DNA of 64,000 bases from a bacterium. Lineage in GTDB: Bacteria > Vulcanimicrobiota > Vulcanimicrobiia > Vulcanimicrobiales > Vulcanimicrobiaceae. The notes below the pieces were generated by a model. That model searched no databases. It worked only from the letters and a program-made list of their open reading frames with translations, and was not told the origin of the DNA. Where the stretch lies: NCBI GenBank assembly GCA_021832345.1, contig JAKBKY010000003.1, positions 186,001-250,000 on the forward strand. The letters are read 5' to 3'. A program made the position numbers and the translations under genes. Shown here one piece after another: positions 20,191 to 26,316 of the stretch. How positions within the stretch are numbered: position 1 is the first letter of the stretch; each line of letters starts with the position of its first letter.

Positions 20191-22310
20191 GACGCTCCCG
20201 GGGAAGGCGCCGGGGATGCGCTCGGCATAGGTGAGGGCGAGTCCAAGTATTCGTAGTTGGTGCCGTCGCCGACGGAGTTCGGCGGCTGCGTGGCGTTGGG
20301 CGGTAGCGGTGTGGGGCCCGACGGCTGAGCGACCGGCGACGCCGAGGGACTCGGCTTGACGACTTTCGGGCAGGGCGCGGGCTGCGTCCCAATCACATAG
20401 TACGCGTAGCCGCCTCGGCAGGTAGGAGCGCGAACGACGTGGCGTTTGGGCACGACAAATGGATGCTTGGGAACGTGAGCGAGCGCCGCTCGCATGAAGC
20501 GAGCCCAAATGGTTGCCGGAACGCCACCGCCGTATCCTTCGACCATCCTTGAGTAGTCGTCGTTGCCCATCCAGACGGCCGTCACGAGATCCGGCGTATA
20601 CCCGACGAACCATCCGTCCCGAAAAGCGGAGGTCGTGCCGGTCTTGCCGGCCGCCGGCCGCCCGATATCGGCATTGGGATATCCGGTGCCGTATTTGATG
20701 ACGTTTTCGAGCATCGACGTCATGACGAAGGCCGTTCCCTTACTCACCACCCGCGTTTTCTGCGGGTGACGATTGTCCAGCACAACCGTTCCCAGCGCAT
20801 CGCGCACCAGGCGAATGGAGACCGGATCGATGTGGACGCCGCGATCTGCGAGCGTTTGATATCCACTGGCCTGATCGACGACGCTGACGCCTGAGGTCCC
20901 TAAGGCCAGCGACAGATTGGGCGAGAGATGGGCTCGTACACCCATTCTATGCGCATAATCGATGACGTTCTCGATGCCGACCCGGGCCGCAAGTTTTACG
21001 GCTACGACGTTGCGCGATAATGCCAGGGCGCGACGCAAGGTGATCGGGCCCATGAACCGGTGGTCGTCGTCCATCGGCGACCATGTCTTGCCGTTTCCCA
21101 TCGGATAGGTAACCGGAGAATCATCCATGATGGTGGTCGGCGTCAAGCCGGAGTCGATGGCAGCCGTGTAGAGATACGCCTTGAACGACGACCCGGGTTG
21201 GCGTAGCGCTTGCCAGGCCCGGTTAAACTGATTCGAAAGCGAGAAGCGCGTCCCGCCGACCATCGCCACGATCTGCCCGGTGGACGGCTGGATGGCCACC
21301 AACGCCGCTTGGTGCCCGCCGACGCCAAGTGCAAGCGAGCGACGAACGCCCCAATCGACCGCTTCTTGCGCGAGGCGCTCGAGTCTCGGATCGACCGTCG
21401 TGTAGACCTTTAAACCGCCCTCGCGCACGACACGACTGCCGAAGAGATGGTTCAGTTGCGCAAGGACGTACGTGGTAAACCACGGCTCGTGATACCCAAG
21501 CACTCCCGGAGAACGCGGAGCGATCAGCCCCAACGGAGCAGTATACGCCAGGTGCGCCTGCCGGCGGGTGATATACCCGGAGGCCACCATGCGTCGCAGA
21601 ACGTGGTGTTGACGCTCTCGCGCGAGCTTGAGATTTGCAAACGGCGAGTAGTCCGACGGCGCGGCGACGGCGCCGGCCAGCATGGCCGCCTGACCGTCGG
21701 TGAGGGTGCGAACGCTTCTTCCGAAATACGTATGCGCCGCCGCATCGACTCCGTAGGCACCTGCGCCGAGGTAGATCATGTTGAGGTAGTAGTCGAGTAT
21801 TTGATTCTTTGTATAGTGCTGGTTGATCTCGATAGCGAGGAGCGCTTCTTCGATCTTCCGCGAGAGCGATATTTGATCGGTCAGAAAGAGCCCGCGGGCG
21901 AGCTGCTGAGTAATCGTCGAGGCGCCTTGAAACTGCCGATGTCCGATATCGGCGAGTGCGGCACGAGCGATGGCGAAGATGTCGATGCCGGGATTCGTAT
22001 AGAACGTGCGATCTTCATTGGCGATGAAAGCATCGCGAACGATCGGCGGGATCTCCGCGATCGGCACCCAGATGCGATTATGCGTATACACGTCGGCCAG
22101 CAGTGCCCCATTGCGCGCATAGATGCTGGTCGCGCGCTCCGGCTGATAGTCACTCATAAGATCGACGTTGGGAAGATTACGAGCGTACACGACCACGATA
22201 CCGGCCACCAGCGCGGCGCTAAAGAGCACGAAAAACAGCAACGCTAAGAGCACGTAGCGCAGCGCGCGACGCGTACCGGCCGCTCGCGATGCGCGTTTAG
22301 GCGCCGGCAT
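20187..22310 (-). CDS. class A penicillin-binding protein (PBP1A-type)
   Basis: 707 residues. Short cytoplasmic N-terminus, one membrane helix (about 20-44), glycosyltransferase domain (EDRTFYTNPGID, QGASTITQQLARG, RKIEEALLAIEINQHYTKNQILDYYLNMIYLGAGAYG), then transpeptidase domain with SxxK (GSSFK near residue 373), SRN and KTGTT (about residue 552). The C-terminal 75 residues are Pro/Ser-rich and probably periplasmic. It polymerises and cross-links peptidoglycan. A TTG 12 bases upstream is an alternative start with a better GGGAG spacing. Overlaps nusB upstream and xseA downstream. Confidence 0.95.
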   Translation of the reverse strand: MPAPKRASRAAGTRRALRYVLLALLFFVLFSAALVAGIVVVYARNLPNVDLMSDYQPERATSIYARNGALLADVYTHNRIWVPIAEIPPIVRDAFIANEDRTFYTNPGIDIFAIARAALADIGHRQFQGASTITQQLARGLFLTDQISLSRKIEEALLAIEINQHYTKNQILDYYLNMIYLGAGAYGVDAAAHTYFGRSVRTLTDGQAAMLAGAVAAPSDYSPFANLKLARERQHHVLRRMVASGYITRRQAHLAYTAPLGLIAPRSPGVLGYHEPWFTTYVLAQLNHLFGSRVVREGGLKVYTTVDPRLERLAQEAVDWGVRRSLALGVGGHQAALVAIQPSTGQIVAMVGGTRFSLSNQFNRAWQALRQPGSSFKAYLYTAAIDSGLTPTTIMDDSPVTYPMGNGKTWSPMDDDHRFMGPITLRRALALSRNVVAVKLAARVGIENVIDYAHRMGVRAHLSPNLSLALGTSGVSVVDQASGYQTLADRGVHIDPVSIRLVRDALGTVVLDNRHPQKTRVVSKGTAFVMTSMLENVIKYGTGYPNADIGRPAAGKTGTTSAFRDGWFVGYTPDLVTAVWMGNDDYSRMVEGYGGGVPATIWARFMRAALAHVPKHPFVVPKRHVVRAPTCRGGYAYYVIGTQPAPCPKVVKPSPSASPVAQPSGPTPLPPNATQPPNSVGDGTNYEYLDSPSPMPSASPAPSPGAS

Positions 22311-22704
22311 GCTCCCGAGCAACGGCTCCCAGGACGCCGTTGACGAAGCGACCCGAGTCTTCGGTTGAGAACTCCTTGGCGAGGTCGACTGCTTCGTTGA
22401 TCACGACGGCGGACGGCGTTTGCGGGTGGTGGTAGAGCTCGAAGGTCCCCAATCGAAGCAACAGGCGGTCGATCGTCGGCAGCCGCTCCAGGCTCCAGCC
22501 TTGCAGGAGCGGAGAAAAATGCTCGTCGAGCTCGTCGGCGTGCTCCAGGACGCCGAAGACCAGACTTCGCACGAAGAGACGATGGACCTGATCCGCCCGC
22601 TTGCCGACGATGTCGTCGAGCATGGCCGCCGGATCGCCCTTGCCGATGGCGATCCCATAGAGAACCTGCAACGCTTGCTCGCGCGCTTTACGCCGAGAAT
22701 GCAT
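22297..22704 (-). CDS. nusB: transcription antitermination factor NusB
   Basis: 135 residues, all-helical NusB fold: RRKAREQALQVLYG at the start, VRSLVFGVLEHADELDEHF, and the end signature PSAVVINEAVDLAKEFSTEDSGRFVNGVLGAVAR. With NusE it binds boxA RNA in rRNA antitermination. Start ATG 22704 overlaps the accC 3' end by 17 bases; a GTG two codons earlier is possible. Confidence 0.95.
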   Translation of the reverse strand: MHSRRKAREQALQVLYGIAIGKGDPAAMLDDIVGKRADQVHRLFVRSLVFGVLEHADELDEHFSPLLQGWSLERLPTIDRLLLRLGTFELYHHPQTPSAVVINEAVDLAKEFSTEDSGRFVNGVLGAVAREHAGA

Positions 22705-24061
22705 TCGCACCGCTCCCCAGGCTCGCCGTCATGACGCTTGGCAAAAACCCGATATCGTAATGACCTTGCCGAAACTCCGCGCTTGCCAGCAGCTCTCGGC
22801 ACTGATCGACGGTGGTCGCCACGCCTTCGATGACGGTCTCTCGTAGGGCTCGTTCCATCCGCGCGATTGCGATCTCGCGCGTTGCACCGAACGCAACGAT
22901 CTTCGCGAGCATCGAATCGTAGTACGGCGGGATCGAGCCCCCCGCGTAGATGTGCGTATCGACGCGTATCCCGGGACCACCGGGCAAGGCCACGTTGGTT
23001 AAACGCCCTGCCTGCGGAGCGAAGTTATTCTTTGCATCCTCGGCATTGATACGGCATTCGATCGCGTGACCACGTGCTGTAAGATCGCCCTGTCCATAGC
23101 CGAGCGATTCGCCGGCGGCTACACGAATTTGCTCCTTCACCAAGTCGATGTTGTAGACCATCTCCGTTACCGGATGTTCCACTTGGATGCGCGTGTTCAT
23201 CTCCATGAAGTAGATGTCATCGTTGCTGACAAGAAACTCGAGCGTCCCGGCATTCGTATAACCGACTGCCTGGCAGGCTCGCACCGCCATCTTGTGGAGT
23301 GCCTCCCGAGCGGCTGCCGTAAGGTTGGGCGCAGGCGCCTCCTCGATGAGCTTCTGATGCGATGGTTTCTGCACGGAGCAGTCGCGTTCGCCTACATGCA
23401 CGACGTTGCCGTGGGTGTCGCCGAGCACTTGCACTTCGATATGGCGCGGGCGCAGGATCAGTTTCTCCAGATAGACGCGCCCGTCTTTGAAGCCGGCTTC
23501 AGCCTCCGCCTGTGCGGAGGCGAACGCTCGCTCGAGATCTGCACGAGCGTGGACCTCACGCATTCCTTTTCCGCCGCCGCCGGCGGTCGCCTTCAGCAAA
23601 ACCGGGTAGCCCATCGCATCCGCTGCAGCCTGCGCCTCTTCGACCGATGTCAGGATATCGGTCCCGGGTGTGGTGGCAACCCCGGCCTCGCTCATGACGC
23701 GCTTGGCGGTCGCCTTGTCACCCATCGCAGCGATGACTTCGGGCCTAGGCCCGATGAAGGCGATTCCGTGATCGGCACAGATCTCGGCAAAGCGCGCATT
23801 CTCGGCCAGGAACCCGTATCCGGGATGAATCGCATCGCAGTGCGTCACCAGAGCCGTCGATATGATGTTGGGGATGTTCAGGTAACTGCGTTGCGCGGGG
23901 CCCGGCCCGACGCAGAAGGCTTCATCGGCGCCGCGCACGTGGAGCGACTCGCGATCGGCCTGCGAGAAGATCGCGACCGTACGCACGCCGAGCTCTTGGC
24001 AGGCACGATTGATGCGTAAGGCGATCTCGCCGCGGTTGGCAATCAAAACTTTCCGGAAGAT
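22688..24061 (-). CDS. accC: acetyl-CoA carboxylase biotin carboxylase subunit (probable non-canonical AUC start)
   Basis: 457 residues. ATP-grasp biotin carboxylase: FRKVLIANRGEIALRI at the N-terminus, HPGYGFLAENARFAE, the ATP loop KATAGGGGKGMR, HIEVQVLGD, ERDCSVQKPSHQKLIEEAPAP, FMEMNTRIQVEHPVTE and ECRINAED. It carboxylates biotin on AccB in fatty-acid synthesis. The conserved N-terminus begins exactly at an ATC codon (24061-24059) with GAGG 8-9 bases upstream; there is no ATG, GTG or TTG at that point. The nearest normal start in frame is a TTG at 24085, adding 8 residues. Follows the accB-like gene. Confidence 0.95.
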   Translation of the reverse strand: MFRKVLIANRGEIALRINRACQELGVRTVAIFSQADRESLHVRGADEAFCVGPGPAQRSYLNIPNIISTALVTHCDAIHPGYGFLAENARFAEICADHGIAFIGPRPEVIAAMGDKATAKRVMSEAGVATTPGTDILTSVEEAQAAADAMGYPVLLKATAGGGGKGMREVHARADLERAFASAQAEAEAGFKDGRVYLEKLILRPRHIEVQVLGDTHGNVVHVGERDCSVQKPSHQKLIEEAPAPNLTAAAREALHKMAVRACQAVGYTNAGTLEFLVSNDDIYFMEMNTRIQVEHPVTEMVYNIDLVKEQIRVAAGESLGYGQGDLTARGHAIECRINAEDAKNNFAPQAGRLTNVALPGGPGIRVDTHIYAGGSIPPYYDSMLAKIVAFGATREIAIARMERALRETVIEGVATTVDQCRELLASAEFRQGHYDIGFLPSVMTASLGSGANAFSA

Positions 24062-24065
24062 GGTC

Positions 24066-24476
24066 TTATCCTCGATCGATCTCAAAGAGTGCAGCGCCGT
24101 AATCCACAGGCGCACCGTCACGCGCCACGATCCGAACGAGAAGGCCTTCTCCCAGGCTGCGCACCGGGTTGCGAATGCCCAGTGCTTCAACGTAGGCTAA
24201 CTCTCGATCGGCCGTCAGCCTCTCGCCTTCCACCGGGGTCGGGCGGCTAAGGCGAAAGATGCCCACCAAATCTGCGGCGATCGTCTCGCGATGGGCGCCG
24301 GCCGGCGCACCGCCCGGCAGGGCGGCCCCTTCACTGCGGGGGCGACGCCGCAGTTCGATCTCCTCGCCCTCACGCTGGATGCACAGCCCGACCAGATCCG
24401 TCTGAGCGAACGCGGAGGCAAGAAGACGGACGCGGTCGACGAGCGGCCCGCCCTCCCCAACGTGGAGATTCGGCAT
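24066..24476 (-). CDS. AccB-like biotinyl domain protein lacking the biotinylation lysine
   Basis: 136 residues directly upstream of accC, the normal place for accB. It shares the AccB plan: an N-terminal helix-hairpin (VDRVRLLASAFAQTDLVGLCIQREGEEIELRRR), a Pro/Ala linker, and a biotinyl/lipoyl barrel (ADLVGIFRLSRPTPVEGERL ... LLVRIVARDGAPVDYGAALFEID). Where active BCCPs have the E-A-M-K-M hairpin, this protein reads YVEALGIRNP: E97 and A98 are kept but the lysine is G100. It therefore cannot be biotinylated at the normal site. It may be a structural or regulatory partner of AccC, as BADC proteins are in plants, with a true AccB elsewhere. Divergent from the HD-GYP gene. Confidence 0.8.
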   Translation of the reverse strand: MPNLHVGEGGPLVDRVRLLASAFAQTDLVGLCIQREGEEIELRRRPRSEGAALPGGAPAGAHRETIAADLVGIFRLSRPTPVEGERLTADRELAYVEALGIRNPVRSLGEGLLVRIVARDGAPVDYGAALFEIDRG

Positions 24477-24501
24477 GGTTCCCCGCGTTTCGCCCCATGG
24501 G

Positions 24502-24531
24502 TTGCCAAGCACTCCCGGAGTAGCCGATACT
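24502..24531 (+). promoter_or_regulatory. promoter of the GAF/HD-GYP gene, leaderless arrangement
   Basis: -35 TTGCCA (24502-24507), 18-bp spacer, -10 GATACT (24526-24531). Only 6 bases separate the -10 from the GTG at 24538, so the transcript would begin at or next to the start codon. Confidence 0.5.
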
Positions 24532-24537
24532 GGGCTC

Positions 24538-26316
24538 GTGCAAGGAGTCTTCCTGCAGGCTCGCGGCGTCGAGATGGGGCCGCTCGCCCAGCTTGTGACT
24601 GACGGTGGGTTGCAGATTCGCGAGGTCGACTTCGCGTGCCGCACAGCCGCGAACGCCCTGAACGACCAGCAGCTTGGTGCGATCGCCGTCCTCCCCGCCG
24701 GCGACCCCGCCTGCGACCGGCTCGCCGAAGACCCTCGGATCGTCGCTATTCTGCATCCGCCGGTCGGGCGGGGAGCGCTGCTTGCCGCGCTGCGAGCGCT
24801 GGCTGCCCGTGAAGCCGCCCGGGAGAACGAGCGCCTGGCGCATGAAACGAGCGACCTCCTCTCCATCGCGCAGGCCCTTGCCTCCGAACACGATCTGATT
24901 GCCCTGCAACAACTCATCGTCCGCACCGCCCGTCAGCTCACCTGTGCCGATGCCGGGAGCCTCTATGTCGTGGAGGCGACCGAGTCTGGAGAGCAGCTCC
25001 GTTTTGCGGTCGCCCAGACGGGCCCGCACGACGCCGGCACCTACCTTGGGGCCCTTCTCCCGCTCAACAATAGGTCGATCGCCGGACATGTCACGCAGAG
25101 CGGCACCACGGTGCGCCTGGCTGACGCGTATGCACTCGATGCCGGCGTTCCGTATCGTTTCAACCGCGACTTCGACGAAGCCAACAGCTATCGCACCAAG
25201 TCGGTCCTGTGCGTCCCGATGCACACGCCGACCGGACAAACCGTGGGCGCGATTCAACTCATCAATCGCAAGCCGCGGTTTGAGCTGACCCTCACATCGC
25301 CCGAGCACGCGCAAGAGGTCGTCGAGCCCTTCGGCGACCACGACGAGCAGCTCCTCTGCGCGCTTGCCGCACAAGCGGCGGTCGCCATGGAGAACGCCCG
25401 GCTCGTCGATTCCATCCAACAACTCTTCGAACGCTTCGTGCACGCATCGGTGAAAGCCATCGAGGTACGCGACCGTGCGACGCAGGGGCACTCCGAGCGC
25501 GTTGCGAGCCTCACCATCGCTCAAGCATGCACTCTGAACGGCATCGAGAGCGGCCCGCTGAAGGACGTACACTTCACTCCGGACCACTTACGCGAACTGC
25601 GGTACGCGTCCTTGCTTCACGATTTCGGGAAGGTGGCCGTCCCGGAGTACATCTTCGCCAAAGCAAAGAAGCTGCCCGACGGCCGCGCAGCCACCATTCG
25701 GCTGCGCTTTCTCCTAGCGATGGAACAGTGCGCCGACCCAGCGGAGCGCGCGCAGCTACGATCACTCCTGGGTAGGATCGAGGCTGCCAATGAACCTGCG
25801 GTGCTCAGCGCCGCCGCCGATGACGCCGTGCAGAGCGCCCGAACACGCACCTTTGATGACGACGGCGTCACCCGGCCCTTACTCGACGCCCCCGAGGCCG
25901 AGTTTCTTGCGATCCCACGCGGATCGCTTTCAAACGACGAACGCACGCGCATGCAGGATCACGTCACACAGTCATTCGTGTTTCTTCGGGAGATTCCATG
26001 GCATACGACGCCCTGGCCAAACGTTGCGGATCTCGCCTACGGCCACCACGAGCATCTCGATGGGACCGGGTATCCACGCGGCCTCCACGGGACACAGATA
26101 CCGCCACAGGTTCGCATGATGACGATCTCAGATATCTTCGATGCCCTGACGGCGGGAGATCGCCCGTATAAAGCCGCCATCTCCCTCGAACGAGCGCTCG
26201 ACATTCTCTCCAAGGAGTTTGCGCAACGCGGCAAGATCGATCCCCTTCTGCTCGACATCTTCATTTCACGCCGGGTCTACCTGGCGACATTGCAAGGCGG
26301 CGCCTTCGACCTCTAG
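24538..26316 (+). CDS. GAF-HD-GYP signalling protein (predicted c-di-GMP phosphodiesterase)
   Basis: 592 residues. A short receiver-like N-terminal region (about 1-85, QIREVDFACRTAANALNDQQ), a linker helix, a GAF sensor domain (about 105-295), then an HD-GYP domain. The HD motif is YASLLHDFGKV, the GYP motif YGHHEHLDGTGYPRGLHG, followed by MMTISDIFDALTAGDRPYK. The HD and GYP halves are separated by an unusual insertion of about 130 residues. It probably hydrolyses c-di-GMP in response to a ligand or partner bound by GAF. I chose the GTG at 24538 because of the promoter 6 bases upstream; an ATG at 24475 shares its CATG with the start of the opposite gene and looks fortuitous. Confidence 0.85.
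   Translation: MQGVFLQARGVEMGPLAQLVTDGGLQIREVDFACRTAANALNDQQLGAIAVLPAGDPACDRLAEDPRIVAILHPPVGRGALLAALRALAAREAARENERLAHETSDLLSIAQALASEHDLIALQQLIVRTARQLTCADAGSLYVVEATESGEQLRFAVAQTGPHDAGTYLGALLPLNNRSIAGHVTQSGTTVRLADAYALDAGVPYRFNRDFDEANSYRTKSVLCVPMHTPTGQTVGAIQLINRKPRFELTLTSPEHAQEVVEPFGDHDEQLLCALAAQAAVAMENARLVDSIQQLFERFVHASVKAIEVRDRATQGHSERVASLTIAQACTLNGIESGPLKDVHFTPDHLRELRYASLLHDFGKVAVPEYIFAKAKKLPDGRAATIRLRFLLAMEQCADPAERAQLRSLLGRIEAANEPAVLSAAADDAVQSARTRTFDDDGVTRPLLDAPEAEFLAIPRGSLSNDERTRMQDHVTQSFVFLREIPWHTTPWPNVADLAYGHHEHLDGTGYPRGLHGTQIPPQVRMMTISDIFDALTAGDRPYKAAISLERALDILSKEFAQRGKIDPLLLDIFISRRVYLATLQGGAFDL

Follow-up and report, generated by a model that had tools for sequence, protein, structure and literature searches.

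The gene in the accB position beside accC encodes an AccB-like protein that cannot carry biotin or lipoate on a lysine and that is conserved, under selection and linked to the only stand-alone accC of its genome. It is close to certain that its product is a conserved, biotin-less protein of the AccB family. We also consider it likely that this is an ancient non-catalytic AccB duplicate kept in the accC operon, which binds AccC and determines how acetyl-CoA carboxylase is assembled or how active it is, in a function like that of the plant BADC proteins; both the binding and the regulation are inferred. The gene and its key site lie as follows in the window, that is, the whole stretch of 64,000 nucleotides that was analysed:

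24066 to 24476, minus strand: accB-like gene with an ATG start, 136 amino acids plus stop, encoding a lysine-free AccB paralogue
24162 to 24188, minus strand: hairpin EALGIRNPV (residues 97–105), which in alignments replaces the biotinylation motif EAMK[LM]xNE[IV]
24177 to 24179, minus strand: codon of Gly100, the site of the biotinyl lysine in true AccB

The initial annotation had described a protein with the layout of AccB, encoded with accC, in which the biotin-accepting lysine is a glycine, and each part of this description is borne out. The best match of the family profile was E. coli AccB from the crystal complex of AccB and AccC (4HR7_B, E 5.9e-17); the match spans profile positions 14–140, so that homology to AccB extends over the N-terminal part as well as the biotinyl domain. 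Comparison of the same profile with the genome's own true AccB gave 98.3% in hhalign. The AlphaFold model (pLDDT 86 overall, 93–98 by block in the barrel) predicts an N-terminal helix and two strands in addition to a barrel sandwich, and the nearest solved structures found by Foldseek include Arabidopsis BCCP1 (9a87, rmsd 1.4) and E. coli AccB (1bdo, 4hr7). A better fit to some other lipoyl-like family, which would have overturned the assignment, was sought and not found: GcvH, E2 and HlyD were rejected, the best sequence matches being biotin carboxyl carrier proteins and the best fold matches biotinyl domains.

Alignments to E. coli AccB and to the genome's true AccB place EALGIRNPV on EAMKMENEI and EAMKLFNEI, respectively, with glycine at residue 100 in the position of the lysine. 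There is no lysine anywhere in the 136 residues, so attachment of biotin or lipoate through a lysine is impossible. The thumb is deleted as well, the span that would hold it measuring 6 residues versus 11 in canonical AccB. The protein falls below the curated cut-offs for AccB (21.3 bits against 115.2 for TIGR00531; 18.9 against 22.1 for PF00364); the true AccB of the same genome also stays under the TIGR00531 cut-off (107.7 bits) but passes that of PF00364.

The genes that follow on the same strand, and a sequence element between the first two, are:

22688 to 24061, minus strand: accC, biotin carboxylase subunit of acetyl-CoA carboxylase, directly downstream of the accB-like gene (TIGR00514, 647.7 bits)
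22297 to 22710, minus strand: nusB (TIGR01951, 134.7 bits), downstream of accC in the same gene run
24068 to 24073, minus strand: GAGGAT, a Shine-Dalgarno-like element read from the sequence, within the last codons of the accB-like gene and about 8 nt before the ATC of accC

The identity of accC is further supported by PRK08591 (665.8 bits), both NCBIfam matches being above cut-off. The gene order is accB-like, accC, nusB, a PBP1A-type gene and xseA; accBC-nusB-xseA is a classical neighbourhood. Nearly all of the relatives examined have an AccB-like homologue immediately upstream of their accC, the two genes being neighbours wherever the contig extends far enough. On the other side, a divergent open reading frame (24475–26316, plus strand) overlaps the start of the accB-like gene by 2 nt; it matches a c-di-GMP phosphodiesterase response-regulator model weakly, GAF and HD-GYP domains are suspected by eye, and its real start is probably further downstream.

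A search for a second, intact accB, which the initial annotation had proposed as a check, found one in the genome (2.34 Mb in 11 contigs, 98% complete). It encodes a protein of 143 amino acids (L004) with EAMKL and a thumb, on a different contig from the accB-like gene, and is flanked by hisS and a phosphosugar-isomerase-like gene, the names of these neighbours being read from sequence. The genome has just one stand-alone biotin carboxylase, encoded by the accC beside the accB-like gene; the two remaining biotin carboxylase domains reside within fused BC-BCCP subunits. There are three full-length carboxyltransferases and two weaker Carboxyl_trans matches at C1:158–160 kb; the latter resemble accD and accA, accD being a putative assignment from gene length and a zinc-finger-like CPSC motif noted by eye. 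A single gene of the biotin/lipoyl ligase type was found. It should be noted that in these genomes an automatic "accB" label beside accC would point to the wrong gene as the functional carrier.

To describe the distribution of the protein, a profile scan of named genomes was used, in which all 52 matches came from Ca. Eremiobacterota/Vulcanimicrobiota or from MAGs labelled merely "bacterium". Within the Vulcanimicrobiota (Ca. Eremiobacterota), 143 of 149 genomes gave profile matches, a count that takes in weaker matches to true AccB. The residue at the biotin site was tallied over distinct sequences of accC-linked proteins, each locus being read individually. It is glycine in all 69 homologues from the family and order of the window. 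One relative, G008, has the hairpin ETLGIRNPV at L029. Among 14 class-mates (f3) the residue at the site is lysine in eight and arginine in six; the other classes of the phylum show nine G, six N, two R, two S and one K, and 34 proteins of a second phylum (handle G410) show 12 G, 12 K, four R, four D, one N and one S. Lysine was present in 48 of 48 accC-linked AccBs from other families, a control picked by high profile score and not drawn at random. An intact lysine in relatives, which would have pointed to a sequence error, is thus absent from the window's family and order.

The thumb is deleted in most accC-linked homologues: the span is 6 residues long in 69/69 of the family and order and in 14/14 of f3, and the 11-residue span is retained in 13 of 20 members from other classes. 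AccBs unlinked to accC carry the lysine in all but seven copies, namely three with G from the family of the window and two with T, one with R and one with N from the second phylum. No accC was seen beside these seven within the sequence stretch examined; their short thumb span suggests that they belong to the accC-linked type. Eight genomes of the phylum (G060–G063, G141–G144) were without a stand-alone AccB, having fused proteins or no matches, and these eight were also without the accC-linked paralogue. The lysine-free state is not universal, and the linked homologues that keep the lysine (8/14 in f3, 12/34 in the second phylum, and that of G055) may be biotinylated; it is possible that the f3 proteins represent an intermediate state between carrier and non-carrier.

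Two further features were seen at individual loci. The f3 loci L038–L054 read EALK or EALR at the biotin site, and many have a C-terminal tail ending in PPR[LI]. In the second phylum, L245, L250, L255 and L264 have a small open reading frame between the AccB-like gene and accC, with a prepilin-like N-terminus (GLIEVLV...) in L250 and L264 and perhaps L245.

The accB-like gene is under purifying selection (dN/dS 0.06–0.33 between pairs of close relatives), and the hairpin is the most conserved nine-column stretch of the family (rank 1 of 128), which indicates that the lysine-free hairpin is probably itself functional. A decaying pseudogene or a sequence error, to which the lost lysine, the lost thumb and the scores under the AccB cut-offs might have pointed, is ruled out by this selection and conservation and by the glycine in 69 of 69 distinct sequences, which together with the absence of any lysine cannot reasonably be put down to chance or sequencing error. 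Phylogenetic analysis (94 rows, 131 columns, leaving out the biotin-site and thumb columns) placed the AccBs of other phyla in one cluster (SH-aLRT 90) together with the unlinked AccBs of the Vulcanimicrobiota and part of those from the second phylum; the accC-linked proteins of both phyla fell outside it. The presence or absence of the lysine changed at least 10 times on the tree. The simplest reading, which is not proved, is an old duplication of accB predating the diversification of the phylum; the tree is poorly resolved and can neither date the duplication nor tell which copy is ancestral.

An unusual start codon was found for accC. Its conserved start position is ATC (24059–24061, minus strand), 4 nt past the stop of the accB-like gene, and an alternative TTG (24083–24085) lies 8 codons upstream within the accB-like gene. 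The GAGGAT element is inferred to be the putative ribosome binding site of accC, its position being a fitting one. Among 65 loci of the family and order of the window, 28 have ATT (18) or ATC (10) at this position (e.g., L098, L100, L103, L117, L120, and L121), and about 18 of these 28 have no ATG, GTG or TTG between the start codon and the upstream in-frame stop. Neither codon occurs at the accC start in any of 57 loci of f3, the other classes and the second phylum combined; in other phyla 49 of 52 begin with ATG, GTG or TTG, and the remaining three have an ATG two codons upstream. Judged from these sequences alone, AUU/AUC initiation is apparently used for the housekeeping enzyme AccC in this family and order. 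Such starts are weak and sensitive to IF3, from which a slower synthesis of AccC than of the AccB-like protein would be expected, and the arrangement suggests that translation of accC is coupled to, and weaker than, that of the accB-like gene.

These observations can be combined into a mechanism for the role that we favor, for which AccC binding and an effect on carboxylase activity are both inferred, without direct evidence for either. The duplicate would have lost the biotinyl lysine and the thumb while keeping the N-terminal part and the barrel fold, a working, biotinylatable AccB being supplied by the gene elsewhere in the genome. Through the shared AccB fold it may bind AccC and stand in for some of the AccB copies of the AccC-AccB subcomplex; the contact with AccC, and perhaps one with the thumb of true AccB as well, would be made by its conserved lysine-free hairpin. 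The loss of its own thumb would fit a partner that touches the thumb of true AccB instead of bringing one, although this is speculative. Since the weak AUC/AUU start lies only 4 nt downstream, the operon would be expected to yield the AccB-like subunit in excess over AccC. Its presence might aid assembly and stability of the subcomplex as a "glue", or it might lower carboxylation through the carrier positions that it occupies.

The strict linkage and tight spacing to accC and the conserved hairpin would equally be expected of a chaperone or stabilizer acting on AccC only, keeping it soluble or dimeric and capping its active site, outside the working carboxylase. This is untested, and we regard it as unlikely, as it leaves the retention of the whole AccB layout unexplained. 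Somewhat less probable still is a function in another pathway or complex, e.g., with a fused-type or different acyl-CoA carboxylase, the place beside accC being merely inherited: old operons can retain genes by inertia, and the genome does encode two fused BC-BCCP subunits and three full-length carboxyltransferases, but the linkage to accC is kept in many families and extends to a second phylum, and the genomes without a stand-alone AccB also lack the AccB-like protein, which we count in favor of a role with AccB and AccC. A carrier with its cofactor on another residue, an idea that the lysine at this site in some homologues might encourage, is scarcely credible given the complete absence of lysine from the window protein and from 16 of 68 other linked homologues of the family and order.

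A role as a non-catalytic partner of AccB and AccC can be compared with known systems. E. coli AccB (4HR7) has in common with the AccB-like protein the N-terminal part, the linker, the barrel-sandwich domain and the place next to accC; it differs in that the AccB-like protein has neither biotinyl lysine nor thumb, carries the hairpin EALGIRNPV, and leaves true AccB to a separate gene. The small non-catalytic "epsilon"-type subunits serve acyl-CoA carboxylases and not the AccABCD enzyme. Those of some bacterial acyl-CoA carboxylases are reported to aid assembly and to activate catalysis (cited in PMC11926652), and the likeness, for which no sequence comparison was made, consists in a non-catalytic subunit with a reported role in assembly.

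The closest parallel in anatomy is the plant BADC, a non-catalytic, lysine-less BCCP homologue of the plastid heteromeric enzyme, which binds BC and BCCP, contacts the thumb of BCCP, and is debated as either an inhibitor or an assembly factor (PMC11926652). Biotin-less subunits of this type have been called unique to the plant enzyme (PMC11926652), and our literature search, which did not cover most subscription journals, yielded no report of a lysine-less BCCP or a BADC from bacteria. Like BADC, the AccB-like protein is a BCCP homologue without the biotinylation motif and coexists with a biotinylatable one (here L004, EAMKL). Unlike BADC, it is bacterial, shares an operon with the biotin carboxylase gene and has lost its thumb, and its link to AccC is purely genetic, without binding or activity data. 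By analogy it may thus be called BADC-like in its anatomy, and its role is probably BADC-like too, kinship with plant BADC not being established. Whether it is a bacterial counterpart of BADC in at least two phyla, an old AccB paralogue dedicated to AccC that lost its lysine repeatedly and controls fatty-acid synthesis at its first committed step, the AUU/AUC start behind it throttling AccC output, we judge to be evenly balanced. The control of acetyl-CoA carboxylase is a central question in lipid metabolism, and a small bacterial system with an accC operon and natural G, K, R, N, S and D variants would make the role of such a subunit directly testable. If the counterpart is real, the loss of the lysine to G, D, N, R, S and T across lineages would mean that a non-catalytic subunit of this kind is no invention of plants.
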